From a virus, in the IMG/VR virus record IMGVR_UViG_3300020478_000036, positions 1 through 31,888 of that record: 31,888 nucleotides of DNA. One strand, 5' to 3'. The notes under the pieces are model-generated. The model had not been told where the DNA came from, did no database searches, and saw only the letters and a program-made list of their open reading frames with translations. Numbering within the stretch: position 1 is the first letter of the stretch; every line of letters starts with the position of its first letter. Shown here in pieces: positions 2,064 through 19,435 of the stretch. A program made the position numbers and the translations under genes.

Positions 2064-2082
2064 CAGAATCCCGTTGTCCTCA

Positions 2083-2114
2083 CTGCTCCGGCGGAAGCAG
2101 GGGATATATCCGCC
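2083..2114 (+). promoter_or_regulatory. GC-rich alternative hairpins between terL and lysozyme
   Basis: The 67-base gap after terL is much richer in GC than its surroundings and contains three competing pairings: CTGCT (2083-2087) with AGCAG (2096-2100), GGCGGA (2090-2095) with TCCGCC (2109-2114), and the palindrome GGATATATCC (2102-2111). The SD for the lysozyme (AGGAG, about 2121-2125) follows. This could be an RNA processing or translation-control element. It lacks the T-run of an intrinsic terminator. Confidence 0.5.
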
Positions 2115-2130
2115 ATTTATAGGAGTTAAA

Positions 2131-2574
2131 ATGAATATTGAAAAATTAAGGGAAGAATTAAAAATTGATGAAGGTTGTGTTAATGAAATATATAAAGATC
2201 ACCTCGGTTATCCTACTTTTGGGATTGGCCACCTCATTACTGACTCCGATCCTGAGTATGGTTTAGAAGTTGGTACTGAGATTGGAGAAGAAAGAGTTAA
2301 TGATGTTTTTGAACAAGATATAAAAACAGTTATTGATGATTGTGAAAATGAATATGTATTCTTTAATGATCTTCCTGAAGAAGCTCAACATATAGTTGCG
2401 AATATGATGTTTAATATGGGTAAACCTCGAATGCAGAAATTTCTTAAGTTTAAAGTAGCTCTTGCAGAACATAACTGGGAGAAAGCTGCAATAGAAATGG
2501 AAGATAGTTTATGGCATAAACAAGTAACTAATCGAGCTAATAGACTTATTGAAAGAATGAAAAATGTCGCATAA
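2131..2574 (+). CDS. Endolysin, T4-type lysozyme (GH24)
   Basis: This 147-aa muramidase would cleave the glycan strands of peptidoglycan at lysis. It aligns along its length with T4 lysozyme: IDEG with catalytic Glu14, YKD with Asp23, the PTFGIGH stretch with Thr29 (equivalent to T4 Thr26), a central NMMFNMG, and C-terminal NRANRLIERM. It lacks a signal peptide or signal anchor, so release should depend on a holin. I chose the ATG at 2131 because AGGAG lies just upstream. An upstream TTG at 2074 would add 19 residues with no SD and run through the structured GC-rich gap. It is shorter than T4 lysozyme (164 aa). Confidence 0.93.
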   Translation: MNIEKLREELKIDEGCVNEIYKDHLGYPTFGIGHLITDSDPEYGLEVGTEIGEERVNDVFEQDIKTVIDDCENEYVFFNDLPEEAQHIVANMMFNMGKPRMQKFLKFKVALAEHNWEKAAIEMEDSLWHKQVTNRANRLIERMKNVA

Positions 2575-3495: not shown

Positions 3496-3792
3496 ATGTT
3501 ATACACACATAAAAATAATAGGTTGCTTATAGAAGGTTCTACAGGAAAAGTTTATAAAGATAATGAACTATTATTTAAAGGTAACAGTTATGTTGCTATA
3601 AAGTTATTTATTAAGAACTCAGATAATAATGAGAACGTATTAAAAATGTTTGAAGCACAATTAACAATGCGTGAGCAATGTAGATTTGATGCACAAACAA
3701 AGAGTGAACGATTGAACCCAGGAGCGGATCATGAACGAGAGATACATTCAGCGACCAAAGGAAGTAAAAGTAAAACCCGTAAAAGAAAATAA
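3496..3792 (+). CDS. Small hypothetical protein with basic tail
   Basis: This 98-aa ORF starts two bases after the previous stop. The first ~35 residues (RLLIEGSTGKVYKDNELLFKG) look like a small beta-rich module with a glycine turn. The middle is helical and charged, and the tail is Lys/Arg/Ser-rich (KGSKSKTRKRK). Its last 62 bases overlap the next gene in another frame, so the tail composition may partly reflect that overlap. No family is recognised. The position before the portal suggests a head-assembly or DNA-binding accessory role, which is inference only. Confidence 0.65.
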   Translation: MLYTHKNNRLLIEGSTGKVYKDNELLFKGNSYVAIKLFIKNSDNNENVLKMFEAQLTMREQCRFDAQTKSERLNPGADHEREIHSATKGSKSKTRKRK

Positions 3793-3892
3793 AAAGGAAG
3801 AAAAAAGAGAACTTCCTAAAGCGGGTAGTTATACTGTTGCTGATTTAGAACAATCAAAAAAGATATATTCAAGTACTGGAGGTAAATACTAA
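3731..3892 (+). CDS. Small charged protein directly upstream of portal
   Basis: This 53-aa ORF begins with ATG preceded by AGGAGCGGATC, a good SD inside the preceding gene, and ends in a TAATG overlap with the portal start. The product (starts MNERYIQRPKEVKVKP, ends SSTGGKY) is rich in Lys and Glu in its first half and has the short segment SYTVADLEQSKKIY near the end. It explains the otherwise empty 3793-3891 stretch. Short proteins at this position occur in other podoviruses. The function is unknown. Confidence 0.7.
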   Translation: MNERYIQRPKEVKVKPVKENKKEEKRELPKAGSYTVADLEQSKKIYSSTGGKY

Positions 3893-6054
3893 TGGCATCT
3901 CCAGGTTATAAAGAAGTAGTTACTGATGAACAATTAATTAATTTAATTGAAACAGGTGTACATAATTCTTCAGGAGATTGGTTAAATGCAACTGATTTAG
4001 CTAGAGAAAGATTAAAAGCTACTTATGAATATGCAGGATTAGCAAATTATCATTTAGCACCACAAGGTGTTAGTACTATTGTTGATACAAGTACAACAGA
4101 AGTAATTGAAGCTTATACTGCAGTTATATCTGATTTGTTTTTAGCGAATAATAAGTTAGCTCGTTTTGTTCCGTATGATGAAAGTCCAGGTTCATTTAAA
4201 GCAGCAAAAGATGGTTCTGCTTTAGTTAATTACTGTTTATTTAAAAAGAATAGTGGGTGGGAAATTTTACAACAGTGGATTAAATCTTCTTTGTTATGGA
4301 AGAATGCAATCTGTCGTTGGTATTATGTAGAAGATACTCAATATGTTTTTGAAGAGTATGAAAAGATTTCTCAATCAGCTTTAGATGAAATATTAGCTGA
4401 TGATAATACAGAAATTGTTGGAAGTTTAGAATTTGAAAATCAATTTAGTAATGTTGATCCATTAGCAGGTAGTCAACCTGAAGCTGAAATGGTATATATT
4501 AATGTAAGAATAAAAAAGAAATTAGATAAGTCAAGAGTTAAAATTGAAATAGTTCCACCAGAAAGTTTTCGTATTTCAAGGGAAGCAACTTGTATTACTG
4601 ATGCTTCTTTTGTTGGTATCCAAACTGAAATGACACGTTCTGAAATAAGACAATATTATCCGGAAGCTGCTGATAGTATTGATAACTGGGATGAACTTAA
4701 AGGTAGTGAGTCTTGGTTTGGTGCATCATCATACTCAGAAGATGTTGCTGCACGTAAACTTGTAACAGGTCAAGAGTATCATGACGGTGCATTATTACAT
4801 GAAGATAATCCGTTAGAAGCTAATAGATCAATTACAGTTACAGAATCTTGGTTAAATGTTGATCGAGATGGTGATGGTATTGCTGAATTAAAACATTTTA
4901 TTACTGTTGGTAAAAATATATTAGCAGAAGAAGATGTTGAATCAATACCTTTAGCAAGTATTGTTCCAATAGATATTCCACATGAATTCTTTGGATTATC
5001 TATGGCAGACTTTACACGTAGTAGTACATTAGCAAGTACAGCAATATTAAGAGGATTTGTTGAAAATACATATTTAACAAACTATGCACCTAAGTTAGCT
5101 GATCCTAATATTGTAGACTTCAGTGCATTACAGAATATGAAGCCTAAGCAAATCATTCCTACAAATGGTAATCCAACACAAGCTGTTGCACCATTAACAC
5201 CTGATACAATTTCTTCAGGTACAGTACCGTTGCTAGAACATTTACAATTAATAAAAGAACAAGCAACAGGAATGTCTAAAGCTGCACAAGGTTTAAATGA
5301 TACATTATATATCTCAGGTAACTCAGAACAAAAGTTACAAGCAGTACAATCTGCTGCTCAAAAGAGAATCCAGCATATTGCAAGACGATTTGCTGAAACC
5401 GGATTTAAGAGATTAGTTCAAGGTATCTATGAAACTATGCACAAGAATATGAAAGGTAAAATTAATTATAACCTTGATGGTGTATATGGTACTATAGATA
5501 TGTCAACACTTCCATCGAAGATGGATGTGGAAATTTTGTTAGATATTGGAGAAAATTCAAATTCAAATACTATTAGTAAGTTATCTAAGATAGGTGCAGA
5601 AATATTACCTGCATTAAATCAGCAAGGTGCAGGAATGGTAATACGTCCTGAGGCTCCAGCTGTCTTAGCAACTAAATTAATAGAATCAATGAATCTAGAT
5701 AGTAATGATTTCCTAGAAGATTATACAACAGATGAGTTTAAGCAGAAAGCTGTTAAAGCATTACAAGAACAGTCTCAAGCTGCTGAAGTTAAGAAACAAG
5801 CAGAGCAAAAGAAGCTACAAGCTGATGCCGCTTTAGCGGAGGCGAACGTAGCGTTCACAGGTGCTCAAACAAAGAATACATTTGATGATAATGCAAAACA
5901 ATTGGCTATATCAATTGATAGGCATTTTCAAGAATGGGCAGACCTTACTATTAAGGCGACTAAGGAAGGAACGGAGTTACCTCCGCATCCTAACTATGGT
6001 GAAATAATACAAATGGCCAGAGGGTTGTTGCAAATGTCAAAACCTCAAGGCTAA
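3892..6054 (+). CDS. Portal protein, P22/N4-type
   Basis: This 720-aa protein would form the dodecameric ring at the capsid vertex through which DNA is packaged and ejected. Recognisable parts are a mixed N-terminal region, a central segment with DRDGDGIAELKHF and PHEFFGLSMADF followed by the helical stem region typical of large podovirus portals, and a C-terminal Gln/Ala/Lys-rich helix (about residues 620-665), as in the barrel of P22 portal. Length matches the P22-type group. It overlaps the upstream gene by one base (TAATG) with SD GGAGGT at about 3879. Confidence is high from sequence pattern and position between terminase and scaffold. Confidence 0.9.
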   Translation: MASPGYKEVVTDEQLINLIETGVHNSSGDWLNATDLARERLKATYEYAGLANYHLAPQGVSTIVDTSTTEVIEAYTAVISDLFLANNKLARFVPYDESPGSFKAAKDGSALVNYCLFKKNSGWEILQQWIKSSLLWKNAICRWYYVEDTQYVFEEYEKISQSALDEILADDNTEIVGSLEFENQFSNVDPLAGSQPEAEMVYINVRIKKKLDKSRVKIEIVPPESFRISREATCITDASFVGIQTEMTRSEIRQYYPEAADSIDNWDELKGSESWFGASSYSEDVAARKLVTGQEYHDGALLHEDNPLEANRSITVTESWLNVDRDGDGIAELKHFITVGKNILAEEDVESIPLASIVPIDIPHEFFGLSMADFTRSSTLASTAILRGFVENTYLTNYAPKLADPNIVDFSALQNMKPKQIIPTNGNPTQAVAPLTPDTISSGTVPLLEHLQLIKEQATGMSKAAQGLNDTLYISGNSEQKLQAVQSAAQKRIQHIARRFAETGFKRLVQGIYETMHKNMKGKINYNLDGVYGTIDMSTLPSKMDVEILLDIGENSNSNTISKLSKIGAEILPALNQQGAGMVIRPEAPAVLATKLIESMNLDSNDFLEDYTTDEFKQKAVKALQEQSQAAEVKKQAEQKKLQADAALAEANVAFTGAQTKNTFDDNAKQLAISIDRHFQEWADLTIKATKEGTELPPHPNYGEIIQMARGLLQMSKPQG
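5828..5856. repeat. Pair of GC-rich inverted repeats inside portal gene
   Basis: CCGCTTTAGCGG (5828-5839) and GAACGTAGCGTTC (5844-5856) are two back-to-back 5-bp stems with 2- and 3-base loops, forming a GC-rich island within an AT-rich gene. They encode the Ala-rich helix ALAEANVAF. They may be a mobile or recombinogenic palindromic element, or an mRNA structure. I see no other copy in the window. Confidence 0.55.
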
Positions 6055-6080
6055 TCTTGCTTTTAAAAGGAGAAGCTATT

Positions 6081-6479
6081 ATGGTTAATATAGACCAACT
6101 TATGCCTTATACGATAGGCTTTGATCGTATGTTTAATATGTTAAATAGAGACTTTGTTCCATCAACATATCCACCTTATAATATTAGAAAGGTAGGTGAA
6201 TATAATTTTTATATTGATATGGCATTAGCCGGATTTAATAAAGATGATATTGAAGTTAAAATTGCTGATGGAGAACTTTCTGTTAAATCTAAAGTTAAGA
6301 ATAATGATAAAGAAGAAACTTTATATAAAGGAATAGCACAACGTAGTTTTAATAAACTATTTACATTAGCTGATGATGTTGAAGTTAAAGATGCTGAGTT
6401 AACTAATGGAATGCTTACAATTAGTCTGGAAAAAATTGTTCCAGATGAAAAGAAACCTAGAGTAATTAAAATTAATTAG
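6081..6479 (+). CDS. hsp20: Small heat-shock protein Hsp20 (IbpA-like)
   Basis: This 132-aa chaperone has the IbpA layout: an N-terminal FDRMFNML segment (residues 14-21), an alpha-crystallin domain with YNFYIDMALAGFNKDDIEV and LTNGMLTISLEK, and the C-terminal IxI anchor as VIKI. AAAAGGAGAAG upstream supports the ATG at 6081; starting at 6057 would add residues that overlap this SD. Hsp20 genes are known in marine cyanophages and other marine phages. Its place between portal and scaffold suggests it protects capsid or tail subunits from aggregation during assembly rather than serving the host, which is inference. Confidence 0.92.
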   Translation: MVNIDQLMPYTIGFDRMFNMLNRDFVPSTYPPYNIRKVGEYNFYIDMALAGFNKDDIEVKIADGELSVKSKVKNNDKEETLYKGIAQRSFNKLFTLADDVEVKDAELTNGMLTISLEKIVPDEKKPRVIKIN

Positions 6480-7173: not shown

Positions 7174-7357
7174 TAACGATCAGTTAGTAAATAATATTAA
7201 AGAAATGATTAACACATTAGAATATGATTCTAGTAGAAGCCCAGGTAAAGCTAAAGTTAATTCGCAAACATTAATTAATTTACATAACTTATTAGAAATT
7301 TATACAAAGAATTCAAAAAAGCCTACACCTAAAAAGGAGGTAAGCAACAATGGATAA
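7160..7357 (+). CDS. Small helical hypothetical protein
   Basis: This 65-aa protein begins 14 bases before the previous stop, with SD AAAGAGGA about 8 bases upstream. It contains a two-helix pattern (LVNNIKEMINTLEY and TLINLHNLLEIYT) and a Lys-rich tail KKPTPKKEV. The tail codons AAGGAGG provide the SD of the scaffold gene, whose start lies inside this ORF. I do not recognise the family; similar small helical proteins often precede scaffolds in podoviruses. Confidence 0.7.
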   Translation: MRQIDNDQLVNNIKEMINTLEYDSSRSPGKAKVNSQTLINLHNLLEIYTKNSKKPTPKKEVSNNG

Positions 7358-8453
7358 TACCGCAGCAATACCAGACTCTACCCCTCGGGATGACTCTGTA
7401 GCTACCGGTGGTCAAACGGAAGAGAAACTGCTGGCTGACATTATTAGTAATTCACAATTTGTGAAGAACGAAGAATCTCTACCCACAGAGCAAGTTCCTA
7501 AGTTAGACCCGGAAGAATCAGATACACAAGACCCAGAATCTGAAGAAGCCGAAAGTGAAGAAGTTGAAGAAGAGACTAATGAAGAAGAAGTAGAAGCTAC
7601 TGAGGAGGATGCCGCTGAAGAAGTCGCTACCCAACCTGAAGTTTTTACAACTGATGATTTAGATCTAGATGCTAAAGTATCCGTTAAGATAGACGGTAAA
7701 GATACTGAAGTTTCTTTTAATGACCTGATTAAAGGTTATTCTACTGAACAATCTCTTTCTAAAAAGGGTCGTGAACTAGGTGATCAGAGGAAAAATCTAG
7801 AGGAAGAATATAATAAAAGACTAGAAGAAGTACGTCAATTAGGTAGTGCTTCAGCTGCTATATTATATTCGGAAGAGCAAGCCCTCTCAAAAAAGTACCA
7901 TGATCTTGAAGCTCAAATTGATGAAGCTAGAAAAGAAAATGATACTTATAAAATGGGTGAGTTGAAAGATGAACGAGAACAAGCTCAACAAGCATACTGG
8001 AAAGCAAGAAATCAAAGAGAGTCTGTTGTAAAGAATATTCAAGCGAATAATCAAAAACAGATAAAAGAAAATTGGGATAAACAAATTAAACATTTTAATG
8101 ATAATATTAATGAGTTGATTCCTGATTATAATGAAAGTACTGCAACATCTATAAGAGAATTCGCTATTAGTGAAGGGATGAAACCCGAAGTTATAGATAT
8201 GATTACTGATCCAGCAATTGTTAAGTTTGTAGATGATTATAGAAGATTAAAGCAAGGTGTTACTAAAGGAACTGTTAAAAGAAAAGCAGTACCTGCTAAA
8301 CGAGTACCTACACGAAAAACTAAATCAGCTAATGAAAAGAAAAATCAAAAGGCTGCTGATTTAAGAACTCGTGCTTTAAGTGCTAACTCATCTAAATCTG
8401 ATCAAGATGCTTTTCTAAAAACTCTAGCCGAAAGATCCCTAAGTAAAGTATAA
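7350..8453 (+). CDS. Capsid scaffolding protein
   Basis: This 367-aa protein has the classic scaffold composition: an acidic Glu/Asp-rich N-terminal region (about residues 25-95), a short domain VSVKIDGKDTEVSFNDLIKG (about 109-128), a long charged coiled coil (about 130-240) and a basic C terminus with Lys/Arg clusters (TKGTVKRKAVPAKRV) that could dock to the capsid protein. It directly precedes the major capsid gene. SD AAGGAGG is at about 7334-7340. It would guide capsid assembly and then leave or be degraded; no protease domain is visible within it. Confidence 0.88.
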   Translation: MDNTAAIPDSTPRDDSVATGGQTEEKLLADIISNSQFVKNEESLPTEQVPKLDPEESDTQDPESEEAESEEVEEETNEEEVEATEEDAAEEVATQPEVFTTDDLDLDAKVSVKIDGKDTEVSFNDLIKGYSTEQSLSKKGRELGDQRKNLEEEYNKRLEEVRQLGSASAAILYSEEQALSKKYHDLEAQIDEARKENDTYKMGELKDEREQAQQAYWKARNQRESVVKNIQANNQKQIKENWDKQIKHFNDNINELIPDYNESTATSIREFAISEGMKPEVIDMITDPAIVKFVDDYRRLKQGVTKGTVKRKAVPAKRVPTRKTKSANEKKNQKAADLRTRALSANSSKSDQDAFLKTLAERSLSKV

Positions 8454-8484: not shown

Positions 8485-9663
8485 ATGGCGACTACAATCG
8501 GTGTGCGTCACGTAGAAGGACCAGGTGGTCCAGCTCGTGGTACTAGCACAAACGAGACCGTCTCTCAAAGAGAAGATCTCGCTAATTTTATTTCCATGAT
8601 TACAAGAGATGAGACACCATTTCTTGCAGATATTGGAAGTACTAAAGCAACTGCGATTTATCATGAATGGCAGACAGATGAACTAGATACTCCAGGCGAT
8701 TCAAGAATTGCTGAAGGTCAAGACTATGTAGAACCAGCAGGATCTGCACATTCTTTATCACCAGCAGTTGGTGCAAAGTTTGGCTTATCAGGACCAACCA
8801 GAACCAGACTTGGAAACTATACACAGATAAATGGTAAGACTATTGCTGTGTCTGGTACAAGAAGAGCTGTTGATCAAGCAGGTGTTGCAGACGAATATGC
8901 ATACCAGCTTAAGAAGCGTGGAACTGAAATGAGACGTGACCTTGAGTTTGATATGGTTCATGCTCATAATATTTCTGCTGCTGTTGGGGCTCAAGCTAAT
9001 GCTGCTAGATCAGCTGGTGGAGTTTCAGCTTTTGTTAATGGTACAGCAACTTGTAATTATGTAGGTCAATGGGAAGCTCCTTCTCAAGCTACTACTGGTG
9101 CTGGTACTGATAATAATGGTACTGCTATTCCTAGAGCTAGTGTGAATGCTTCATCTTCAGCTGCTCCTAATAGAGGAGCTTTAGCATTAACTGATATTGA
9201 TGCAGTTATGCAGAAGATCTATGAAGAAGGTGGAAAGGCAACTAAGATTATGTTATCACCAAAATTAAGAAGGGATTTCTCCGACTTAATGGTAAGTGAT
9301 ACTGGTGTTAGACGTAATATGGATGCTAACGGTGCGCTAAGGCAATCTGTTGATGTTTATATGTCTGACTTCGGAGATATTATGGTTGTACCAAACTATA
9401 TTATGGGATTAACTAATAACCATGCTGCTATACTTGGTGATGGTCATGCATCAACTAAGTTTACTAGTAGTGGTATTCCAAATCTAGCGGACTTTGCTGC
9501 ATATATTTATGACCCAATGTGGTTTAATATTGCTACGCTAAGACCTCTACAAGAAGTAGATGTTGGACAGAAAGGTGACTCAACTGTCGGTATGATGGTA
9601 GAAGAGTGTACTCTTGAAGTTAGAAATCCAAAAGGTTGCGGAGCAATCTACGGTCTTAACTAA
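8485..9663 (+). CDS. Major capsid protein, SU10-type HK97 fold
   Basis: This 392-aa protein matches the SU10/DUF5309 group of HK97-fold capsid proteins: near residues 33-67 it reads NFISMITRDETPFLADIG and ATAIYHEWQTDEL, both typical of that family, followed by TRTRLGNYTQI and GTEMRRDLEFDM. The end contains DPMWFNIATLRPLQEVDVG and a Gly-rich tail. A strong SD (GGAGGG at about 8470) is consistent with high expression. The gene is followed immediately by an intrinsic terminator, as expected for the most abundant virion protein. GC is slightly higher than in the neighbours. Confidence 0.93.
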   Translation: MATTIGVRHVEGPGGPARGTSTNETVSQREDLANFISMITRDETPFLADIGSTKATAIYHEWQTDELDTPGDSRIAEGQDYVEPAGSAHSLSPAVGAKFGLSGPTRTRLGNYTQINGKTIAVSGTRRAVDQAGVADEYAYQLKKRGTEMRRDLEFDMVHAHNISAAVGAQANAARSAGGVSAFVNGTATCNYVGQWEAPSQATTGAGTDNNGTAIPRASVNASSSAAPNRGALALTDIDAVMQKIYEEGGKATKIMLSPKLRRDFSDLMVSDTGVRRNMDANGALRQSVDVYMSDFGDIMVVPNYIMGLTNNHAAILGDGHASTKFTSSGIPNLADFAAYIYDPMWFNIATLRPLQEVDVGQKGDSTVGMMVEECTLEVRNPKGCGAIYGLN

Positions 9664-9670
9664 AGATCTT

Positions 9671-9703
9671 AAGGGAAGGTTAAAATTAATCTTCCCTTTT
9701 TTT
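9671..9703 (+). terminator. Intrinsic terminator after major capsid gene
   Basis: AAGGGAAG (9671-9678) pairs perfectly with CTTCCCTT (9691-9698), and the inner GTTAA/TTAAT extends the stem. Seven T residues follow (9697-9703). It lies 8 bases after the capsid stop codon, and the next gene's SD (AGGGAGA) begins within 5 bases of the T-run, so no new promoter fits between. Downstream genes therefore depend on read-through or on internal promoters. Confidence 0.92.
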
Positions 9704-9717
9704 ACAGGGAGAATGTA

Positions 9718-10068
9718 ATGCCAAAAAAGAAAAAAGACAAATATCAGGAATTAATGTTAAAAGGTCTAAAAGATCTTCAGATTAAACTCGGATCGGGCGC
9801 AGGACCTACCATACCTACTAACCCATTAAAAAATCGAAAGTATACAGTTGATAAATCAGGTCATGTACAATTTCAAAACTCAGGTGGCAAAATATATAGA
9901 CCTATATTAAAAGTTAATAAAGAAGGTAAAATTGTAGACTCTGGTAAAATTAGACAACCTGATGGTACTGTAAAAATTAATCCTAAAACTTATAAATTTA
10001 AAAACTCAGGTGGCAAGATTTCTAAATACTATGCCGGCGGTGGAAACGTAATAACTGGGAGAGACTAA
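9718..10068 (+). CDS. Small basic protein 1 with shared C-terminal TGRD tag
   Basis: This 116-aa protein has a very basic start (MPKKKKDKYQELML) and ends with the tag GGKISKYYAGGGNVITGRD (residues 98-116). A second SGGKI occurs internally (about residue 57), within a beta-like repeat region (QPDGTVKINPKTYKFKNSGG). The next two genes end in close variants of the same tag while their N-terminal parts differ. SD AGGGAGA follows the terminator. The final codons contain GGGAGAGA, the SD of the next gene, and the stop overlaps its start (TAATG). It may be an internal-head or capsid-targeted protein; the function is unknown. Confidence 0.8.
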   Translation: MPKKKKDKYQELMLKGLKDLQIKLGSGAGPTIPTNPLKNRKYTVDKSGHVQFQNSGGKIYRPILKVNKEGKIVDSGKIRQPDGTVKINPKTYKFKNSGGKISKYYAGGGNVITGRD

Positions 10069-10313
10069 TGCCAATTAAAATAGTACCAAAAAATAAAAAG
10101 AAATCAAAATCAGCTAAGCTAGCTGAAAAAAGTTTTAGTGAAACATATAAAGAAAGAATGCCAAGTGGTACTCCTTCACTTTCTGAAGCTATATTAGCCG
10201 GTGGTAAAATGGCTTGGAGAAAAGGTAAACATGCTTTAGGTTATAATAAAGGTGGAAAAGTTTCTAAGAACTGGTCATCATGTGGAGCTAACATAATAAC
10301 TGGGAGAGACTAG
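10068..10313 (+). CDS. Small basic protein 2 with shared C-terminal TGRD tag
   Basis: This 81-aa protein starts with a Lys-rich stretch (MPIKIVPKNKKKSKSAK), has a helical middle (ERMPSGTPSLSEAILAGGK) and ends GGKVSKNWSSCGANIITGRD, the shared tag with one extra residue. Its start codon overlaps the preceding stop, and the SD is carried by the preceding gene's TGRD codons. Its own TGRD codons (ACTGGGAGAGAC) serve the next gene. The net charge is strongly positive, suggesting nucleic-acid or acidic-scaffold contact. Confidence 0.8.
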   Translation: MPIKIVPKNKKKSKSAKLAEKSFSETYKERMPSGTPSLSEAILAGGKMAWRKGKHALGYNKGGKVSKNWSSCGANIITGRD

Positions 10314-10314
10314 T

Positions 10315-10539
10315 ATGAAAAATTCTGTTTTAAGTAAAATAGCTCCACAACATAAAAGACCACCTAAGATTAAAAAAGGTCCCCTTGATGATGGTTTAGG
10401 TCATGGATGGTTTGGAACTTTATATCGCGCAAATAAACATAATAGACGTAAAAAGATTGCACCAATTACTAGACAAAAAGGTGGAAAGATTTCTAAGTAC
10501 TACTCTGATGGTGGTAATGTAATAACTGGAAGAGACTAA
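10315..10539 (+). CDS. Small basic protein 3 with shared C-terminal TGRD tag
   Basis: This 74-aa basic protein (KHKRPPKIKKGPL-like N-terminal half, GLGHGWFGTLYRANKHNRRKK middle) ends GGKISKYYSDGGNVITGRD, almost identical to the first copy. Here the Gly codon is GGA instead of GGG and the next gene has its own SD (CGGGAGGG) downstream of the stop, so the tag is kept without an SD role. That argues for selection on the peptide. Confidence 0.8.
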   Translation: MKNSVLSKIAPQHKRPPKIKKGPLDDGLGHGWFGTLYRANKHNRRKKIAPITRQKGGKISKYYSDGGNVITGRD

Positions 10540-10556
10540 CATAACGGGAGGGAACA

Positions 10557-10802
10557 ATGTACGTTATAAAAGCGGCAAACGGTAATATATATCCAGTAGA
10601 AAAGTGTGTCTACAGAATAGGAGCAGCAACAGGCGGTGGTTATAAATTAACTCATTTATCACTTATAACTGTTACTGAATCAGCAGGTGCTGAACCAAAT
10701 CCTGGATTAACTGATAATCCAGCAGCAGCAACAGCTGGAGACTTACTAGGTTATATAGGTAAATCAGGTAGATTTATTGCTATAACAGAACCTGCTACGT
10801 AA
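10557..10802 (+). CDS. Small hypothetical structural protein
   Basis: This 81-aa protein is beta-rich and nearly uncharged, with IKAANGNIYPVEKCVYRIG at the start, GGGYKLTHLSLITVTE in the middle and YIGKSGRFIAITEPA at the end. SD GGGAGGG is 6 bases upstream. The composition fits a small head or tail surface protein. No family is recognised. Confidence 0.7.
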   Translation: MYVIKAANGNIYPVEKCVYRIGAATGGGYKLTHLSLITVTESAGAEPNPGLTDNPAAATAGDLLGYIGKSGRFIAITEPAT

Positions 10803-11171: not shown

Positions 11172-12245
11172 ATGGCTTTAACATATACGGAGCTAACGAC
11201 TTTAGTTAGGACTTGGTGTAATAGGGATGAAGAAGTAGTTTCTGATAGTGTTATACAAGATGCTTTACAATATGCAGCAGATAAAACTTATAGAACTTTA
11301 AGGGTTCCTCCTTTAGAGAATGTAGCGGTTTTTGTTAATACTGATAGTGAATTAGATAATGCAACAGTAGCAGCTACAAATATTAATCCAAGTAAAACTG
11401 AAATACAAGTACCTCAAGATTTAGTAGAAATTATTGCAATAAAAGAAACTGATTCAGCTGGTAATACAATAAGAGTATTTAATGAAAAGTTAGATGTAAG
11501 AACTTTTAATGATCCATTTGCAGAACGTTATACTAATAATAACTATTTTACTAGAGAAAGAAATGTTATATTTTTAAGTCCTGGATTTGGTTATTCTAAT
11601 TTAGGAACGGCAGCAAATATAGAAGTATATTATTATAGAAGACTTCCTGCATTAAATGCAAAGTATGCAGTTACAGAACTTAATTATGCTGCAGGATTAT
11701 TAACAACTTCAGGTGGGACTACCCCTTTATATTTTGTTAATGGAAATACAACGACGGCTTATGAAACTTTAGCTAAAGCTGAAACTGCTGATACAGGAAA
11801 AGTTACAGCTAAGGTAAATGGTGCAGTAAGTAACTCAACAGCTTTAACTAATGATACACGATCAGGTACTGTTGTTAATGGAATGCAAATATCTGGAACA
11901 GGAATTAGTGGTGTACCTACAGTATCAAATGCTTCTAATCAAAATAGTATTGTTATGTCCGCAGCACAAACAATTGCTGATGATGTTGATTTAATATTTT
12001 CTAATACAAATACTGCAAACTATATAGGTATAGATGTACCACATTGGTTAAGAGATGAAAATGAACGAATATTGGTTTACGGAGCATTGGCTCAAATATA
12101 TGCATTTACCCAAGATGATATTCAAGCGGCTAAGTTTGATAAATTATTTTACTCGGAAATAGCAGAACTAAATACAGCTGATAGACAAAGACAAGCATCA
12201 GGTGGTAATGTACAAATGAATTTTAACGGAAGAGGTATGATATGA
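11172..12245 (+). CDS. Head-to-tail adaptor protein (gp4/gp11-like) with inserted domain
   Basis: This 357-aa protein begins with the helical pattern typical of podovirus adaptors (YTELTTLVRTWCNRDE, VIQDALQYAADKTYRTLRVPPL, residues 4-48), continues through a beta region (PQDLVEIIAIKE, about 81-92) and YYYRRLPALN, and resumes near residue 285 with PHWLRDENERILVYGALAQI and a final helix. Between about 176 and 280 lies a Thr/Ser/Asn-rich beta insertion containing GMQISGTGISGVPTVS, a motif repeated in many phage surface proteins, so this copy likely carries a decoration domain. It would dock on the portal ring and hold the nozzle. SD AAGGGAGA supports the start. Confidence 0.82.
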   Translation: MALTYTELTTLVRTWCNRDEEVVSDSVIQDALQYAADKTYRTLRVPPLENVAVFVNTDSELDNATVAATNINPSKTEIQVPQDLVEIIAIKETDSAGNTIRVFNEKLDVRTFNDPFAERYTNNNYFTRERNVIFLSPGFGYSNLGTAANIEVYYYRRLPALNAKYAVTELNYAAGLLTTSGGTTPLYFVNGNTTTAYETLAKAETADTGKVTAKVNGAVSNSTALTNDTRSGTVVNGMQISGTGISGVPTVSNASNQNSIVMSAAQTIADDVDLIFSNTNTANYIGIDVPHWLRDENERILVYGALAQIYAFTQDDIQAAKFDKLFYSEIAELNTADRQRQASGGNVQMNFNGRGMI

Positions 12246-13757: not shown

Positions 13758-14258
13758 ATGGGATATGTAGGAAATCGAGCAAGTAGTTCCTTTAATAGTA
13801 TGACTAAACAAGATCTTACAGGTGCTAGTGGTAGTTCATTAACTTTATCAAATGTAGTAGCTAATGAAAATGAAATAGAATTATTTATTAATCATGTTAG
13901 ACAAGAACCAACAACATCTTATACAGCAAGTGGAACTACTGTTACATTGCAAGGTTATTCTGTAGCAGCAACTGATGATATATATGTAATATATGCAGGT
14001 AAAGGTCAACAAACTACAGTAACACCAGATGGCTCTGTAACAAGTGCTAAGCTAGGTAGTGGCGTTGTACATGGTTTAGGAATATTTAAAGGTGATACCT
14101 CACAAGACTTAGGTGCTATTATAAGAGTACATGAAAATGAATTAAATTCAAATGTAACTATTGATGCTAATACAAATGGAATAGCAAGTGGACCATTGAC
14201 AATAGCTAGTGGTGTTACATTAACTATAACTAGTGGAGGAGCATTGTCAATCGTATGA
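13758..14258 (+). CDS. Mini-fibre module with 'GVTLT..SGG.L.IV' C terminus
   Basis: This 166-aa protein is beta-rich (LTGASGSSLTLSNVVANE, SVTSAKLGSGVVH) and ends NGIASGPLTIASG followed by VTLTITSGGALSIV, a parallel-beta-like tip shared with the genes at 16140 and 18526. All three are followed at once by a gene with an MS(S/T)-x-L type start. Its last codons contain GGAGGAG (SD), and the stop overlaps the next ATG (ATGA). It would be a fibre or adhesin component; the receptor is unknown. Confidence 0.8.
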   Translation: MGYVGNRASSSFNSMTKQDLTGASGSSLTLSNVVANENEIELFINHVRQEPTTSYTASGTTVTLQGYSVAATDDIYVIYAGKGQQTTVTPDGSVTSAKLGSGVVHGLGIFKGDTSQDLGAIIRVHENELNSNVTIDANTNGIASGPLTIASGVTLTITSGGALSIV

Positions 14259-14902
14259 GTACATTAAAAGTTAATACAATACAAGATACAGCTACTAATA
14301 ATGCTATGACTATTAGTGGTGGTGTTGTTACATTTCCTAATAAACCATCAGGAACAACTTCATTAGAGTTAATTGCTAGTGATACCACAGGTGGTAGTGG
14401 TGCAACTATTGAATTTGATTTATCTACAAATACTAAATACTTTTCACAAAAATTAATAATTTGGGGAGTATACAGAACTGATGGTTCTGATGGTGATCTT
14501 TATGGGTCAGCAAGAAATGATGCTGATAACTCTTATATTGGTAGTGGATATTATACCAGTGTAGTTGGTTATCATTCCCAAGGTAGTGGTGGCAGAACTA
14601 ATTCAAATGCAGGTGATTGGAATGCAACTTATTTCAGAATTGGTGGTTACAATATTGGAGACAGTGCAGAACATGAAGATAATGTATGGGAATTTGATTT
14701 TTATAATTCTATAGGTACTACAAAAAGAATGTCTTACATCGGAAGAAGAATTGGACACAGTTCTGATGCTACACTTGCAGTAGAAACTTTTGGTGGAAGA
14801 TTATTACATACTGCTCAAATTGATAGATTTAAATTAGAAAATGGTTCTGGTGCAACTACAGGTTACGCAGGCTATCAGCTTTACGGATTATTAAAAGCAT
14901 AA
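14255..14902 (+). CDS. Mini-fibre protein, MSTLKV-type N terminus, jelly-roll-like
   Basis: This 215-aa protein is the longest module of the array. It begins MSTLKVNTIQDTATNNAM, the short connector found on most members of the array, followed by a Gly/Ser/Asp-rich beta domain (TTSLELIASDTTGGSG, FSQKLIIWGVYRTDG) and ends AGYQLYGLLKA, the end strand typical of beta-jelly-roll phage tip proteins. It starts in an ATGA overlap. The domain after the connector differs from that of the tandem family at 15215-17666, as expected for exchangeable receptor-binding tips. Confidence 0.8.
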   Translation: MSTLKVNTIQDTATNNAMTISGGVVTFPNKPSGTTSLELIASDTTGGSGATIEFDLSTNTKYFSQKLIIWGVYRTDGSDGDLYGSARNDADNSYIGSGYYTSVVGYHSQGSGGRTNSNAGDWNATYFRIGGYNIGDSAEHEDNVWEFDFYNSIGTTKRMSYIGRRIGHSSDATLAVETFGGRLLHTAQIDRFKLENGSGATTGYAGYQLYGLLKA

Positions 14903-14917
14903 ATAAAGGAGATAGGT

Positions 14918-15211
14918 ATGCCAAGATTTAAAATGGTAAATGGAGAAAGAATCCAGCTTACATCAGAAGAAGAAAAAGAAGTAGATGCGAAGATAAAGGC
15001 ATGGGCTGATGGAGCTCCTTCTCGTAGAATGTCTGCCTTAAGAGAAAAACGAAATAGATTATTAGCAGAAACAGATTGGATGGCTAATTCAGATGTAACG
15101 ATGAGTGCCGATTGGAAGACATATAGACAAGAACTTAGAGATATTACAAAACAAACACCAACTGATGATGACCTTAGTAATATTAAATTTCCAGCTAAAC
15201 CTAAGGAGTAG
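14918..15211 (+). CDS. Tail-fibre assembly chaperone-like protein
   Basis: This 97-aa charged helical protein carries RNRLLAETDWMANSDVTMS and DWKTYRQELRDITKQTP (about residues 45-82), the hallmark of the phage tail assembly chaperone family (Phage_tail_APC type), in which 'LLAETDW...YRQALRDIT' is conserved. Such proteins help fibre tips trimerise. It has its own SD (AAAGGAGA) and lies among mini-fibre genes, as chaperones usually do. The N-terminal 45 residues (MPRFKMVNGERIQLTSEEE) are a short beta-like start plus a charged helix. Confidence 0.88.
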   Translation: MPRFKMVNGERIQLTSEEEKEVDAKIKAWADGAPSRRMSALREKRNRLLAETDWMANSDVTMSADWKTYRQELRDITKQTPTDDDLSNIKFPAKPKE

Positions 15212-15214
15212 ATA

Positions 15215-15679
15215 ATGGGTACATTAAGATTAAGCGAAATACAAAACCCTAGTGGTACAAGTGCTATAACAGTAAATGAAAGTACTGGTATTACTGGTTT
15301 TCCTGCAGGTTTATCAGGTAGTATTACTGTACAAGGAGAAGGTAGTAATAATACTAATCTTCAACAAGGATTAACAAAACATTGGGTATATTTTAAAGGT
15401 ACAACTACAACTGAAATAAAAGATAGTTTTAATTGTTCTAGTTTAGGGGATAATGGAACAGGTGATACTACAACTAATATGACAACTGCCTTTAATAGTG
15501 CTTTTTATTGTGGTGCATCTAATGCAGCTTATGGTAGTACAAATGGTGGTAGAGGTTTAAGTGCTCCACATAATGATGCTATAAATACAACATATATACG
15601 AATAAACTCTCACTCAGGAACTAATACTGCAACTGATTTATTATATAATATGTTTTCTATTGATGGAGATTTAGCATGA
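15215..15679 (+). CDS. Mini-fibre protein, tandem family copy 1, GDLA end
   Basis: This 154-aa protein starts MGTLRLSEIQNPSGTSAITV (connector), then VQGEGSNNTNLQQGLTKHWV and a domain with DSFNCSSLGDNGTGD, and ends SIDGDLA. It is the first of five adjacent paralogs (15215, 15676, 16349, 16789, 17253) sharing K-x-W, DS-x-N-x-(S/A)S and D-x3-G signatures and, in most, the NNM element. The codons of the final GDLA (GGAGATTTAGC) are the SD of the next gene, whose ATG overlaps the stop. It is probably a fibre tip or virion adhesin. Confidence 0.82.
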   Translation: MGTLRLSEIQNPSGTSAITVNESTGITGFPAGLSGSITVQGEGSNNTNLQQGLTKHWVYFKGTTTTEIKDSFNCSSLGDNGTGDTTTNMTTAFNSAFYCGASNAAYGSTNGGRGLSAPHNDAINTTYIRINSHSGTNTATDLLYNMFSIDGDLA

Positions 15680-15687
15680 GTACATTA
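15665..15687 (+). repeat. Gene-junction repeat, exact copy 1
   Basis: A 23-base junction, GGAGATTTAGC followed by ATGAGTACATTA, spans the end of one mini-fibre gene and the start of the next. It is identical to 16778-16800. It encodes GDLA and stop in one frame and MSTL in the other, and holds the SD. A copy with two mismatches lies at 17242-17264 and a half copy at 17652-17666. Confidence 0.9.
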
Positions 15688-16122
15688 AAAGTCGGTGCAA
15701 TACAAAGCACAACAGGTAATGCAGCAGTAACAGTTGCAGCTAATGGTAATCTCACTATTCCAGGAGCTACTAGTATATCTAATACTTCTACATATAATTC
15801 AGATGGAGGAGCAGTCAATCAAAATCTTGTACAAGCAATAGTTAAGGTCTGGAGAAAGTTTAATGGCAGTGATGCAAGCTCTTATGATTCATTTAACATC
15901 TCATCAGGTACAGATAATAGTACTGGTAATTATACTCATACCTTTTCTAGTAATATGAGTGCATTACATTATTCAAATACTTTAGGAAATAACACAAGTG
16001 GAAACTATATAATTACAGTAAATGGTACTGCTACAAGTTCTTTAACAACTAAATCAATGAGTGATAGTACAGCTGCACATGATGACGATGGTGCATTAAC
16101 ATTACATGGAGACCTCGCATAA
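15676..16122 (+). CDS. Mini-fibre protein, tandem family copy 2, GDLA end
   Basis: This 148-aa protein starts MSTLKVGAIQSTTGNAAVTV in an ATGA overlap. It has NLVQAIVKVWRKFNGSD, DSFNISSGTDNSTGN and a beta region, and ends TLHGDLA. Its GDLA codons are GGAGACCTCGCA and the overlap has been lost: the stop is TAA and the next gene uses a separate SD (AGGAGATT) 18 bases later. The GDLA residues are kept although they no longer supply the SD, so they probably matter in the protein. Confidence 0.82.
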   Translation: MSTLKVGAIQSTTGNAAVTVAANGNLTIPGATSISNTSTYNSDGGAVNQNLVQAIVKVWRKFNGSDASSYDSFNISSGTDNSTGNYTHTFSSNMSALHYSNTLGNNTSGNYIITVNGTATSSLTTKSMSDSTAAHDDDGALTLHGDLA

Positions 16123-16139
16123 ATAAATAGGAGATTAGT

Positions 16140-16352
16140 ATGCCAAGAAGTACAATAAGTGTAGGATACTTTCAGGGAGATGGAGGTACTGCAGTAGGTG
16201 ATAAAGCCAATATATTTAGGACAGTCGAAAAGACTTTAAACACAAATACAACAATAGCAGCGACTGACAACTCTTATGCTCCAGGTCCAATTACAGTGGC
16301 AAATGGAGTTACACTAACAGTTGCAAGTGGTGGGAGGCTCGTAATAGTATGA
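16140..16352 (+). CDS. Short module ending 'GVTLTVASGGRLVIV'
   Basis: This 70-aa protein (starts MPRSTISVGYFQGDGG) is mainly the beta tip seen on the 13758 and 18526 products: NTTIAATDNSYAPGPITVAN then GVTLTVASGGRLVIV. It looks like a minimal or shortened version of those genes, keeping only the end module. Its last codons GGGAGG act as the SD and overlap the next MSTL gene (ATGA). It has its own SD AGGAGATT. Confidence 0.75.
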   Translation: MPRSTISVGYFQGDGGTAVGDKANIFRTVEKTLNTNTTIAATDNSYAPGPITVANGVTLTVASGGRLVIV

Positions 16353-16792
16353 GTACATTAGCAGCAGATACAATTACAAATGTCGCTGGGAGTTCAGCAG
16401 GAACTACTATCACCATAGATAAAGACTCTACATTTAATTCTGAAGGTACAGCAGTTACACAGAATCTTATAACAGGAGTCAATAAGCAGTGGATAAATTA
16501 TAGTATGCACGATGCATCAATTAGGGATAGCTTTAATACAACTAGCATTACAGATAATACAACTGGTGATTTTTCAATTACTATTGCAAACAATATGGCT
16601 AATACTACTTACGTAACAGCAGTAGATGGTAATTATAATTTAGCTAATGGAAACTATACTGCTGGTAGTGCCAATGGTTTAGAAATATATAGACAAATGA
16701 CAACAACAGCATATGATCATATTGCCGCTTCTTCAGGAAGCACATACGATTTTAAATGGGTATTAAGTTGTAATCTAGGAGATTTAGCATGA
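16349..16792 (+). CDS. Mini-fibre protein, tandem family copy 3, GDLA end
   Basis: This 147-aa protein begins MSTLAADTITNVAGSSAG and has NLITGVNKQWINYSMHD, DSFNTTSITDNTTGD, an ANNMANTTYV element and the ending SCNLGDLA. It overlaps both neighbours by ATGA. The K-x-W, DSFN and NNM signatures align with copies 1, 2, 4 and 5, while the region after NNM is highly variable, consistent with a shared scaffold and a changeable surface. Confidence 0.82.
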   Translation: MSTLAADTITNVAGSSAGTTITIDKDSTFNSEGTAVTQNLITGVNKQWINYSMHDASIRDSFNTTSITDNTTGDFSITIANNMANTTYVTAVDGNYNLANGNYTAGSANGLEIYRQMTTTAYDHIAASSGSTYDFKWVLSCNLGDLA

Positions 16793-16800
16793 GTACATTA
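16778..16800 (+). repeat. Gene-junction repeat, exact copy 2
   Basis: This is the same 23-base junction as 15665-15687 with no mismatch. It joins copy 3 and copy 4 of the tandem family. The identity exceeds that of the flanking coding DNA, so it may be a recent recombination product or a preferred crossover site. Confidence 0.9.
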
Positions 16801-17256
16801 GTAGTAGACCAATTACAAGGTGCAACAAATAATACAATTACAATACCAGCAGGAACAACGATAACAAATAGTGGAACAGCTAATAACTTTGGTGTATCAG
16901 ATCCTAATGCAAGTTCGTCTACATTAGTTAAACAATGGATAAACTATAAAGGTAGCTCTACTAATGAGATTAGAGATAGTATTAATTGTTCATCAGTTAC
17001 AGATAGTTCTGCTGGAAATTACAGACCTGTCTTTACTAATAACATGGATAATACTACTTATGCTTTATATGGTTGTAGTGATGGCAGAGGAAGTGGGGAT
17101 ACCCCAGATGATGGAATGTTTGTTTTAGGAACAACTAGTACATATAGTATTGCACAAGCTACTAATACTTATGGTATACTTTGTGGAACTTATCAAAATG
17201 GATCAAGATTGGATATAGATAATGTTCATATACACATAAATGGAGATTTAGTATGA
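16789..17256 (+). CDS. Mini-fibre protein, tandem family copy 4, GDLV end
   Basis: This 155-aa protein starts MSTLVVDQLQGATNNTITI. It contains STLVKQWINYKGSSTNEI, DSINCSSVTDSSAGN and FTNNMDNTTYALYGC, then a variable region and HIHINGDLV. It has ATGA overlaps at both ends; the junction with copy 5 differs from the exact repeat at two bases (GTATGA and ACACTA). It is likely an adhesin or tip subunit. Confidence 0.82.
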   Translation: MSTLVVDQLQGATNNTITIPAGTTITNSGTANNFGVSDPNASSSTLVKQWINYKGSSTNEIRDSINCSSVTDSSAGNYRPVFTNNMDNTTYALYGCSDGRGSGDTPDDGMFVLGTTSTYSIAQATNTYGILCGTYQNGSRLDIDNVHIHINGDLV

Positions 17257-17666
17257 GTACACTAGCAATTAACACATTAACAGGACAATCTTCAGCTTCA
17301 AGTATTAATGTAAGAGGTGAAGGTAGTGCTAATACAAATCTTCAGCAGGGATTGGCTAAATTTTGGCATCAAACAAATGCAAGTAGTGGTACTCCTGCTA
17401 CCCAAGATTCACTTAATTTAGCTAGTATAACTGATAATGGAGTAGGAAACTTTACTTTTAATTTTACAAATAACATGGGTAATAATGATTATTCTTTTAC
17501 TCATTATGCAATAACAAGTGGATACTACTCATTATATCATGGTGCTAGTTTATCTGTAGGCACATCATCTTTACAGCTTAGAGATAATCATACTCCTAAT
17601 TTGTCAAGTGCTGACGTAATAGACCATACACATATTAATGATACTATACACGGAGACCTAGCATGA
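17253..17666 (+). CDS. Mini-fibre protein, tandem family copy 5, GDLA end
   Basis: This 137-aa protein starts MSTLAINTLTGQSSASSI. Its VRGEGSANTNLQQGLAKFW closely resembles VQGEGSNNTNLQQGLTKHW of copy 1 although three paralogs lie between, which suggests copies 1 and 5 are sisters or exchanged this segment. It also has DSLNLASITDNGVGN and FTNNMGNNDYSF, and ends TIHGDLA with GGAGACCTAGC as the SD for the next gene (ATGA overlap). Confidence 0.82.
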   Translation: MSTLAINTLTGQSSASSINVRGEGSANTNLQQGLAKFWHQTNASSGTPATQDSLNLASITDNGVGNFTFNFTNNMGNNDYSFTHYAITSGYYSLYHGASLSVGTSSLQLRDNHTPNLSSADVIDHTHINDTIHGDLA

Positions 17667-18130
17667 TTCAAACACCAAAGTTTAAAGGAACACATTTATT
17701 CGCAAGACTAGGTTGGGCTAAAGAAAATCTAGAACCTTTTCAATCAGATATAAGAGTTGTATATGAAGACGGACTAGATGACCCTGCAAAGATATTAGTA
17801 CCAGATCCTAATTGGATGGCTTGTGCCTTACAAGGTGGCATATTACCTCCAGTAGAATCTTATTGGGAATTAGCTAAAGATGAAGCTAAACCTGATTTTA
17901 AAAGACACACAAGAGGATATCTGTTACACGATACAGAACCTGTTGGACCAATGACAGAAGAAGAAGCTATTGAATATCTAATCAAAAAAGATATTCCAAG
18001 TCATATATGGAAAACATGGAATGATGGCAATAAACCTAAAATGGTTATATGTCGTACACACCAGTTACCAAGCAATCGTGAGTGGCGAAATGCTTGGAAA
18101 ATTAATGAAGATATAGAACTAGCAGCATAG
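17663..18130 (+). CDS. Fibre-region accessory protein with 'PSNR.WRNAW' end
   Basis: This 155-aa soluble, charged protein is unlike the fibre modules. It contains VYEDGLDDPAKILVPDPNWM, EEEAIEYLIKKDIPSHIW and a C-terminal LPSNREWRNAWKINED. The next gene begins with a related PSDRHFRNAW segment. Proteins with this 'xRxFRNAW' element are common beside marine-phage fibre genes and may be assembly or chaperone factors, though I cannot name a characterised one. Its start lies in the last ATGA junction of the five-copy array. Confidence 0.72.
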   Translation: MIQTPKFKGTHLFARLGWAKENLEPFQSDIRVVYEDGLDDPAKILVPDPNWMACALQGGILPPVESYWELAKDEAKPDFKRHTRGYLLHDTEPVGPMTEEEAIEYLIKKDIPSHIWKTWNDGNKPKMVICRTHQLPSNREWRNAWKINEDIELAA

Positions 18131-18140
18131 GGAGAACTTA

Positions 18141-18515
18141 ATGACAAAAGTACATATCACAGATAAAAACGGTGCTTCGATAGAACAAACTGAAAAACTA
18201 TCAAAGCCATCAGACAGACACTTTAGAAATGCATGGGTAATTAGCAGTGGTGCTATAACCGAAGACATGACTGAAGCAAAGAAAATATTTCAAAATAAAA
18301 TTAGAGAAGTTAGAGAACCTCTATTAGCAGCAGAAGATGTTGTATATATGAAAGCAATAGAAGCTGATGATTCATCTGCAAAGTCTGCAAGTGCAGCTAA
18401 GAAAAAGAAACTTAGAGATGCTCCAGCAGCAAGTGCTATTAGCAGTGCAGATACAATAACAAAACTAAAAGCAGCTTGGGATGAAAGTATATTAGGAAAA
18501 AGTCCATACGCATAA
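18141..18515 (+). CDS. Helical fibre-region accessory protein, chaperone-like
   Basis: This 124-aa protein starts with PSDRHFRNAWVISSGAITED (residues 23-42) and continues as an Ala/Lys-rich helix with KIFQNKIREVREPLLAAED, a segment SAAKKKKLRDAPAASAIS and IDT-like end TKLKAAWDESILG. The pattern 'DM..A..I...KIR..R.PLL...D..YM.A.E' followed by 'LRD.PA...I' recurs in phage proteins next to fibres, similar in logic to tail fibre assembly chaperones. SD GGGAGAAC precedes the ATG. Confidence 0.75.
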   Translation: MTKVHITDKNGASIEQTEKLSKPSDRHFRNAWVISSGAITEDMTEAKKIFQNKIREVREPLLAAEDVVYMKAIEADDSSAKSASAAKKKKLRDAPAASAISSADTITKLKAAWDESILGKSPYA

Positions 18516-18525
18516 GGAGGTTTAA

Positions 18526-18990
18526 ATGCCATATATAGGGAAAGAACCATTACATGGTGAATATATAAAGTTAGATAACATTACAGCCTCTGCAACAGCA
18601 ACTTATAACCTTTTAAGAGGTGGAGCAGCATTTAGTCCAGGAACTGCAGAACAATGTATTGTTAGTCTTAACGGAGTTACACAAGCTCCAGGAGATGCTT
18701 ACACTATAAGTGGAAGCCAAATAACATTTAGTGAAGCATTGACAAGCAGTGATGTTATTAATTATATATTAGTCATGGGTAATAACTTATCTACTGGTAC
18801 ACCTTCTGCTGGATCTGTAACAGGTGCTCAACTAGCTAATACATTATTTAGAGATCCATTGAGAATAAATGATGCATCTATTGATGCAAATATTACAATA
18901 GCAAGCACAGAGAGAGCCATGGCAGCTGGAGATATTTCAGTGGCTAATGGTGTAACATTAACAGTTAACGGAGTATTGACCATTGTCTAG
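18526..18990 (+). CDS. Mini-fibre module with 'GVTLTV.GVLTIV' C terminus
   Basis: This 154-aa beta-rich protein starts MPYIGKEPLHGEYIKLDNI, an N terminus common among marine-phage fibre proteins, has EQCIVSLNGVTQAPGDAYT and ISGSQITFSEALTSSDVIN in the middle (like the 13758 product), and ends DASIDANITIASTERAM then GVTLTVNGVLTIV. It is the third [IV-ending gene]+[MS-start gene] pair. A very strong SD AAGGAGG precedes it. Its last codons (GGAGTATTG) supply the SD of the next gene, which starts with TTG inside this ORF. Confidence 0.8.
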   Translation: MPYIGKEPLHGEYIKLDNITASATATYNLLRGGAAFSPGTAEQCIVSLNGVTQAPGDAYTISGSQITFSEALTSSDVINYILVMGNNLSTGTPSAGSVTGAQLANTLFRDPLRINDASIDANITIASTERAMAAGDISVANGVTLTVNGVLTIV

Positions 18991-19435
18991 TAAATTATAT
19001 GTGGACTCGATAGAGCCAAAAACAACAGGTGGTAGTATAAGTATTTCTAATGCTGTAGTTAGTCAACCAACTAAACCTTATTGGGTATTAGGCGTAACTT
19101 CATCAGGGCAAGTAGAAGGCGATATAGCTTTTGATAATGAGCATGTAGTTAGAGGAGTAACTCATTCTAGTGGAAATGTTACAATACTTACTGCTGGTTT
19201 ATATTTATGTACATTTATGACTAATGCAGATGGAACTGCAACTTATAAATATATAAGAAAGAATGGTACGCAAATGTATAATCCAATGACTCAATGGCAT
19301 AATGGAGCTGATAGTAACACTTTAATTCTTCCTATTGATTGTGAAGTAAACGATGTACTTGATTGTTATCATCACACTGCTGGAAATGGAACTTGGGGTC
19401 ATAATACTTTATTTACAGGAGTACTAATGGGATGA
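18983..19435 (+). CDS. Mini-fibre protein, C1q/TNF-like jelly roll, TTG start
   Basis: This 150-aa protein starts at TTG (18983), 9 bases after GGAG, giving SSKLYVDSIEPKTTGGSIS, which matches the connector of the MSTL family. The rest resembles a C1q/TNF-like jelly roll: ILTAGLYLCTFMTNADGT, KYIRKNGTQMYN and LPIDCEVNDVLDCYHH. No ATG alternative keeps the connector. It ends GVLMG with an ATGA overlap. The fold assignment is by pattern, not alignment. Confidence 0.75.
   Translation: MSSKLYVDSIEPKTTGGSISISNAVVSQPTKPYWVLGVTSSGQVEGDIAFDNEHVVRGVTHSSGNVTILTAGLYLCTFMTNADGTATYKYIRKNGTQMYNPMTQWHNGADSNTLILPIDCEVNDVLDCYHHTAGNGTWGHNTLFTGVLMG

Follow-up and report, generated by a model that had tools for sequence, protein, structure and literature searches.

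The DNA analysed here, referred to as the window, is a stretch of 31,888 bases that carries an SU10-type virion gene block, in which SU10 portal, major capsid protein (MCP) and adaptor genes are syntenic; a terminase-like gene is also present in this genome (Table 1). The MCP gene forms the conserved upstream border of a cassette of small genes, an 81-aa beta protein forms the downstream border, and the order MCP – cassette – adaptor is anchored by the adaptor gene. The 81-aa protein gave no fold match in PDB or BFVD and is a possible capsid accessory protein. Between MCP gene and cassette lies an intrinsic-terminator-like hairpin followed by a T-run, and a comparable site (T5 run, MFE < −7 kcal/mol) was found 3′ of the MCP gene in 82 of 86 relatives, so that cassette transcription would be expected to be lower than that of the MCP gene. 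Elsewhere in the window, the product of 6057-6479, between portal and scaffold genes, looks like an Hsp20-like small heat-shock protein by sequence appearance only, a ribonucleotide reductase is encoded in the late gene block at 22873-24648 (Pfam Ribonuc_red_lgC 4.5e-109, with a weak match to the class II insertion domain), and a long tandem run of small similar-looking ORFs, many starting with MSTL, occupies 14255-20492, 3′ of the adaptor gene; these are possibly of fibre or appendage type.

Table 1. Features of the window around the cassette between the MCP and adaptor genes (SD, Shine-Dalgarno sequence).
Feature	Position	Strand	Remarks
Sampled DNA (window)	IMGVR_UViG_3300020478_000036, positions 1 to 31,888		Virus record, 31,888 bases
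Lysozyme gene	2074-2574		Part of SU10-type block
SU10 portal gene	3892-6054		Pfam 3.7e-129
Scaffold-like gene	7350-8453		Part of SU10-type block
MCP gene, SU10 type, HK97 fold	8485..9663	+	Pfam SU10_MCP 1.2e-68; PHROG major head protein 1.1e-69
Intrinsic-terminator-like hairpin and T-run	9671..9698	+	12-bp stem; fold z-score −2.05
Tagged cargo gene 1	9718..10068	+	116 aa, Lys-rich; internal NSGGKI repeat also present
Tag 1	10009..10065	+	GGKISKYYAGGGNVITGRD
SD for gene 2	10057..10062	+	GGGAGA = G-R codons of tag 1
Tagged cargo gene 2	10068..10313	+	81 aa, Cys-variant tag; relatives in L003, L004
Tag 2	10251..10310	+	GGKVSKNWSSCGANIITGRD
SD for gene 3	10302..10307	+	GGGAGA = G-R codons of tag 2
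Tagged cargo gene 3	10315..10539	+	74 aa; AlphaFold2 model disordered, pLDDT 59.5, pTM 0.13
Tag 3	10480..10536	+	GGKISKYYSDGGNVITGRD; GGA codon
Displaced SD for the conserved downstream 81-aa gene	10546..10552	+	GGGAGGG
81-aa beta protein, conserved	10557..10802	+	Downstream cassette border; alignment of 51 sequences; AlphaFold2 pLDDT 88
SU10-type adaptor (head-tail connector)	11172..12245	+	Pfam SU10_adaptor 3.5e-15

Three adjacent ORFs 3′ of the MCP gene share the ending GGKISKYYxxGGNVITGRD, hereafter the tag, one of them in a Cys variant. These ORFs, their coordinates and their tails are exactly those of a preliminary description of this DNA, with one correction; the endings stand as it quoted them, but the tag of copy 2 is a distinct sub-type (SKNWSSCGANIITGRD), one residue longer and with a Cys, that recurs in the close relatives L003 and L004. 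By BLASTP, the match between copies 1 and 3 spanned the last 31 residues only (E 5e-10), and a search with copy 3 matched the tails of the other two copies at E 3.5e-7 and 7.4e-4. With its tag removed, copy 1 gave nothing significant against tagless copy 2 or copy 3, so the similarity is confined to the tail, as had been claimed; for tagless copies 2 and 3 the comparison was a global alignment only, with 27% identity over 44 codons. None of the three proteins matched Pfam or PHROGs, tblastn against GenBank phages gave no match to gene 1 or to the bare tag (which the low-complexity filter may hide), a PDB search with the tag profile gave no match, and narrow word searches of the literature found no description of the tag. 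The AlphaFold2 model of the gene 3 product was of low confidence, with just a two-residue pairing within the tag. At the DNA level, the overlap of TGRD codons and SD noted earlier was seen in copies 1 and 2, ahead of the following start codon ATG, and in copy 3 the Gly codon is GGA, as had also been noted, because the SD sits downstream of the tag.

The frequency of the tag was evaluated with a degenerate DNA pattern for KYYxxGGx(V/I)xTGR, using as chance control the same pattern with the spacer one base short and thus of identical information content. The pattern was found in 87 IMG/VR stretches versus 0 for the control, which occurred once in 257 billion bases of genomes; the relaxed pattern YxxGGx(V/I)xTGRD-stop gave 51 versus 0, and the sister ending YKxxGGxV(F/Y)KGR-stop 34 versus 0. 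Practically all tagged stretches belong to one marine SU10-like lineage and lie in the MCP-to-adaptor slot: among 81 distinct ORFs with a TGR-type C-terminal tag, 76 are found no more than 2.2 kb 3′ of an SU10-type MCP gene, three directly follow a terminase-like gene (L015, L118 and L155) and two (L096 and L165) are at the start of the available sequence. The post-terminase site indicates that adjacency to the capsid gene is not required. Scanning of long relatives with the tag profile gave no strong match beyond these two kinds of site. The conserved terminal peptide on divergent cargo that the preliminary description reported beside one capsid gene is therefore found, in IMG/VR, across a phage lineage and not in unrelated contexts. 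Resemblances to the tag end were observed in small genes just 5′ of the portal gene that end in (I/L)YTGRG... (L015:3189-3443, L155:3167-3325, L118:2441-2599 and window 3731-3892), which occur in genomes with a post-terminase tagged gene. Related motifs were also seen in two late genes of the window, 29590-30138 and 30140-31729, with SSYFDDGGEVASL internal and WWNKGGQIPNRAGGK C-terminal, and the YxxGGxV core may occur more widely as a motif of virion proteins.

The interval between the MCP gene and the 81-aa gene measured 60-2333 bases (median 695) and held 0-5 small genes. In a set of 136 cassette ORFs, which comes partly from loci found by the tag itself, the strict tag was present in 57, versus 1 of 905 other ORFs on the same contigs, and the YxxGGxV motif occurred in the last 40 residues of 98, versus 42 of the 905; Lys+Arg content was 21.7% in cassette ORFs versus 11.7% in the others. 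Of the loci chosen by MCP similarity alone, 55 with distinct MCPs extended far enough downstream; in 31 of these the first ORF after the MCP gene had a TGR-type tag at its end, and in 14 it had another YxxGGxV ending. Slots carried one to three strictly tagged genes, and the strict tag was absent from 33 of 86 closed intervals, with the slot of L009 reduced to one 19-aa ORF, showing that the system is dispensable. In Roseobacter phage CRP-7, the closest isolate identified (MCP 52% identical), the slot likewise contains no tagged gene.

Other contents of the slot were also observed. Bmp/PnrA-like ABC-transporter substrate-binding genes adjoin tagged genes in four genomes (L018:7807-8838, L019:3302-4333, L115:2761-3792 and L147:3058-5087); their products have signal-peptide-like N-termini, two that were scanned matched PF02608 (E 1.7e-55 and 2e-35), and they are apparently host-derived genes amid head genes. 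At L012:9236-10591 and in L013, tagged genes are replaced by a gene for a 451-aa metalloprotease-like protein with RHELDHYADD and no Pfam match. In four further genomes (L026:9494-9838, L063:9356-9685, L071 and L005:9599-9901) a tag-like KYYxxGGxVxxGR is internal, not terminal, and is followed by a conserved extension, NLPDxLKKKIIxxKKKK or TAAQKTLPDFLQKKI. A second terminal peptide, an amphipathic helix (such as YESFGEFLKTMGLGK, FAAFLKSLGLGK or FDLAKFFGK), ends other cassette proteins (L022, L042, L045, L067, L068, L069, L089, L106 and L154, e.g. L154:1451-1978). Since the scaffold protein ends in AFLKTLAERSLSKV / MAFLRGLAERSL, this F..F(L/M)K..GLGK-like ending may, judging by sequence, imitate the C-terminus of the scaffold and serve as a second code alongside the tag.

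Selection on the peptide was assessed in loci selected by MCP, the sole criterion for the ORFs being YYxx(G/A)G close to the C-terminus. In the tag part outside the SD, differences amounted to 0.58 at third positions and 0.25-0.27 at first and second positions, versus 0.61 and about 0.70 in the cargo part. Third positions are thus saturated while residues are conserved, indicating that the peptide is selected and that the tags are not merely recent copies; a coding relic, or an SD only, was rejected for the same reason. The Gly codon of TGR was GGG in 28 of 28 tags with an abutting next gene, and GGA or GGT in all five tags retained without one (window copy 3, L003, L007, L008 and L011); these counts come from MCP-chosen loci, as tags found by a residue-fixing pattern would be partly circular. 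Six related small proteins without an abutting next gene have lost TGR and bear CGPAxNN-type ends instead. The SD accordingly accounts for the TGR codons and perhaps in part for the persistence of TGR, but not for GGKISKYYxxGGxV. One DNA stretch here holds two codes, a conserved peptide and the ribosome site of the next gene, and the tag codons switch as the ribosome-site constraint comes and goes.

The cargo ahead of the tag is interchangeable, being mostly Lys-rich and disordered and in some cases carrying a LysM peptidoglycan-binding domain. By phmmer (E<1e-3), 79 distinct tagged proteins of about 56 to 240 aa fell into about 35 cargo clusters, a count that is approximate because the largest cluster, that of LysM proteins (Pfam 2.5e-15), also joins some non-LysM proteins. 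Ordinary homology among the cargos, which would have spoken against the preliminary description, is not what is seen. Turnover is visible between the window and L003, whose flanks on both sides are 94-95% identical in DNA and whose slot contents differ: the gene 1 cargo has a homolog of 71% identity, the gene 2 cargo has been largely replaced (43% identity), and one gene of each has no counterpart in the other.

Tag variants track the capsid lineage more than the cargo. Tags on different cargo in the same genome differed at 2.0 of 15 positions, and where MCPs were <75% identical the tags differed at 3.55 of 15 positions on the same cargo and at 3.78 on different cargo; same-cargo pairs within one lineage had tags closer still. 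In a regression of tag differences, MCP distance and cargo identity both mattered (0/500 permutations reached either coefficient). Some cargo clusters unite homologs across lineages, and one cargo, for instance, has ITGRD at its end in L005 and L017 but FTGR in L092, L102 and L131; L018 and L019 have the form CGATVITGRG. That homologous cargo in a distant lineage bears the tag of that lineage fits recognition by a lineage-specific partner, and gene conversion between neighbouring tags could be an alternative source of the coupling.

The tag is thus real, lineage-wide and under selection as a peptide, and what it does we infer: in this group of ocean phages, it is probably the means by which interchangeable cargo is attached to virus particles. 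The position of the genes, the basic composition of their products, lineage specificity, dispensability and cargo swapping suggest that [GGK(I/V)S]KYYxxGGxV(I/F)TGR(D) might well be a C-terminal docking or targeting signal of one marine SU10-like podovirus lineage, recruiting accessory proteins, small and mostly basic, to the head as the virion is assembled; we favour the interior, though tentatively. Gene position, lineage coupling and cargo swapping point to sorting to the prohead or capsid lattice, where the binding partner would be MCP, scaffold or portal. The tagged proteins would be recruited via the terminal peptide and loaded preferably into the head interior, would be packed amid the DNA and exit together with it in the manner of T4 internal proteins, and, once ejected, might serve in entry or counter-defence. 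A bolder reading is conceivable, although we hold it with less confidence: throughout a lineage of ocean phages, the region behind the capsid gene would be a dedicated plug-in slot, such that any small protein gaining a C-terminal KYYxxGGxV(I/F)TGR(D) is loaded onto or into the head. Such a C-terminal loading code would have no relation to the signals of T4 or encapsulins, would carry LysM and basic proteins to hosts, and would evolve through the exchange of cassettes.

Alternatively, the tag could bind the outer capsid lattice and present cargo such as LysM or basic tails at the surface of the head. LysM suits such display, and in SU10 gp10, encoded between MCP gp9 and adaptor gp11 in the same slot as the cassette, may be a capsid protein that is bound only loosely (PMC9509320). 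Nevertheless, an exterior location is unlikely, as most cargo looks disordered and poly-Lys without a display fold, and the decoration protein could instead be the 81-aa beta protein from the same slot. A little less probable still is a role confined to the infected cell, in which the peptide would never enter virions but would mediate binding to a phage or host protein for late-stage takeover, assembly chaperoning or lysis. Tagged genes directly after the terminase gene, and a downstream slot that can hold clearly non-structural genes such as those for the Bmp/PnrA-like binding proteins, would agree with such a role, whereas the tag occurs in a single lineage and only within the head/packaging block, and varies with capsid lineage, which argues against such a role.

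We also considered that there is no true swapping, and that a single family of disordered proteins keeps its C-terminal motif while the N-terminal part drifts fast. Many cargos are indeed short and Lys-rich, where homology fades fast, and some clusters join homologs across lineages; however, the LysM-domain cargo, the very different lengths, the presence of up to three strictly tagged genes per slot and the replacement between phages with nearly identical flanks make this explanation improbable. Conservation of the tails mainly as DNA, as a recombination target for cassette exchange plus SD with the peptide as a by-product, is highly improbable, since the GGG codon in every abutting case, the cassette junctions common to several genomes and the loss of TGR in the MPKVGDKEF... 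family, which lacks an abutting next gene, are outweighed by the saturated third positions outside the SD, which largely refute it, by the five non-abutting genes that retain [TK]GR with GGA or GGT, and by GGKISKYYxxGGxV, which neither SD nor recombination need explains.

Should the tag indeed be a head-loading signal, it would provide a sequence handle for virion-delivered accessory proteins in uncultivated marine phages, which carry no Pfam or PHROG annotation (T4 internal proteins were likewise found by their signal), as well as a short C-terminal peptide for putting foreign cargo into a phage head.

As a terminal targeting peptide on variable phage cargo, the tag would be of a kind already known. 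T4 internal proteins are small, basic, non-essential and poorly conserved between relatives, with several per genome and a short shared terminal peptide, and their capsid targeting sequences are believed to permit the loading of diverse proteins into T4-like heads (PMC9026906); after injection, they inhibit host restriction enzymes (PMC12373910). The comparison with them in the preliminary description is apt as an analogy: like T4 IPI, IPII and IPIII, the proteins here are small, basic, accessory and variable between close relatives, as seen in their Lys+Arg content, their 35 clusters and the replacement between 94-95% identical flanks. The T4 signal, however, is N-terminal, of 10-19 residues and cleaved by the gp21 protease, whereas the N-termini here differ and the signal is C-terminal, of about 20 residues and unrelated in sequence; hence this is not a member of the T4 system. 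No prohead protease stands out among the annotations of the window. Furthermore, packaging is proven in T4 and proposed for the tagged proteins.

In SU10, heads contain five ejected proteins and show no visible decoration density, in a study where mass spectrometry covered cut major protein bands only, and gp10 is predicted to be Ig-like and similar to minor capsid and head-fibre proteins (PMC9509320). The cassette shares with gp10 the position between MCP and adaptor (PMC9509320), but where SU10 has one predicted Ig-like protein, the cassette has 0-5 small ones that are exchangeable, mostly disordered and alike in their tails; the three proteins of the window had no Pfam match and the copy 3 model is disordered, which does not fit an Ig-like fold. 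The five ejected head proteins, together with gp10 in the syntenic slot, make placement both inside and outside the head possible. Encapsulin cargo peptides are short, C-terminal and Gly-containing with hydrophobic and Arg anchors, occur on unrelated cargo and are recognised by an HK97-fold shell encoded nearby (PMC7925596). The tag resembles them as a C-terminal peptide conserved on unrelated cargo, but their motif is of the LTVGSLRR/GSL type (PMC7925596) and not KYYxxGGxVxTGR, their cargo is usually a folded enzyme, and their shell is cellular and has no portal or terminase, whereas the genome here encodes SU10 portal, MCP and adaptor and a terminase-like protein. On the best reading, by analogy, the tag would work like T4 capsid-targeting sequences or encapsulin targeting peptides while being homologous to neither.
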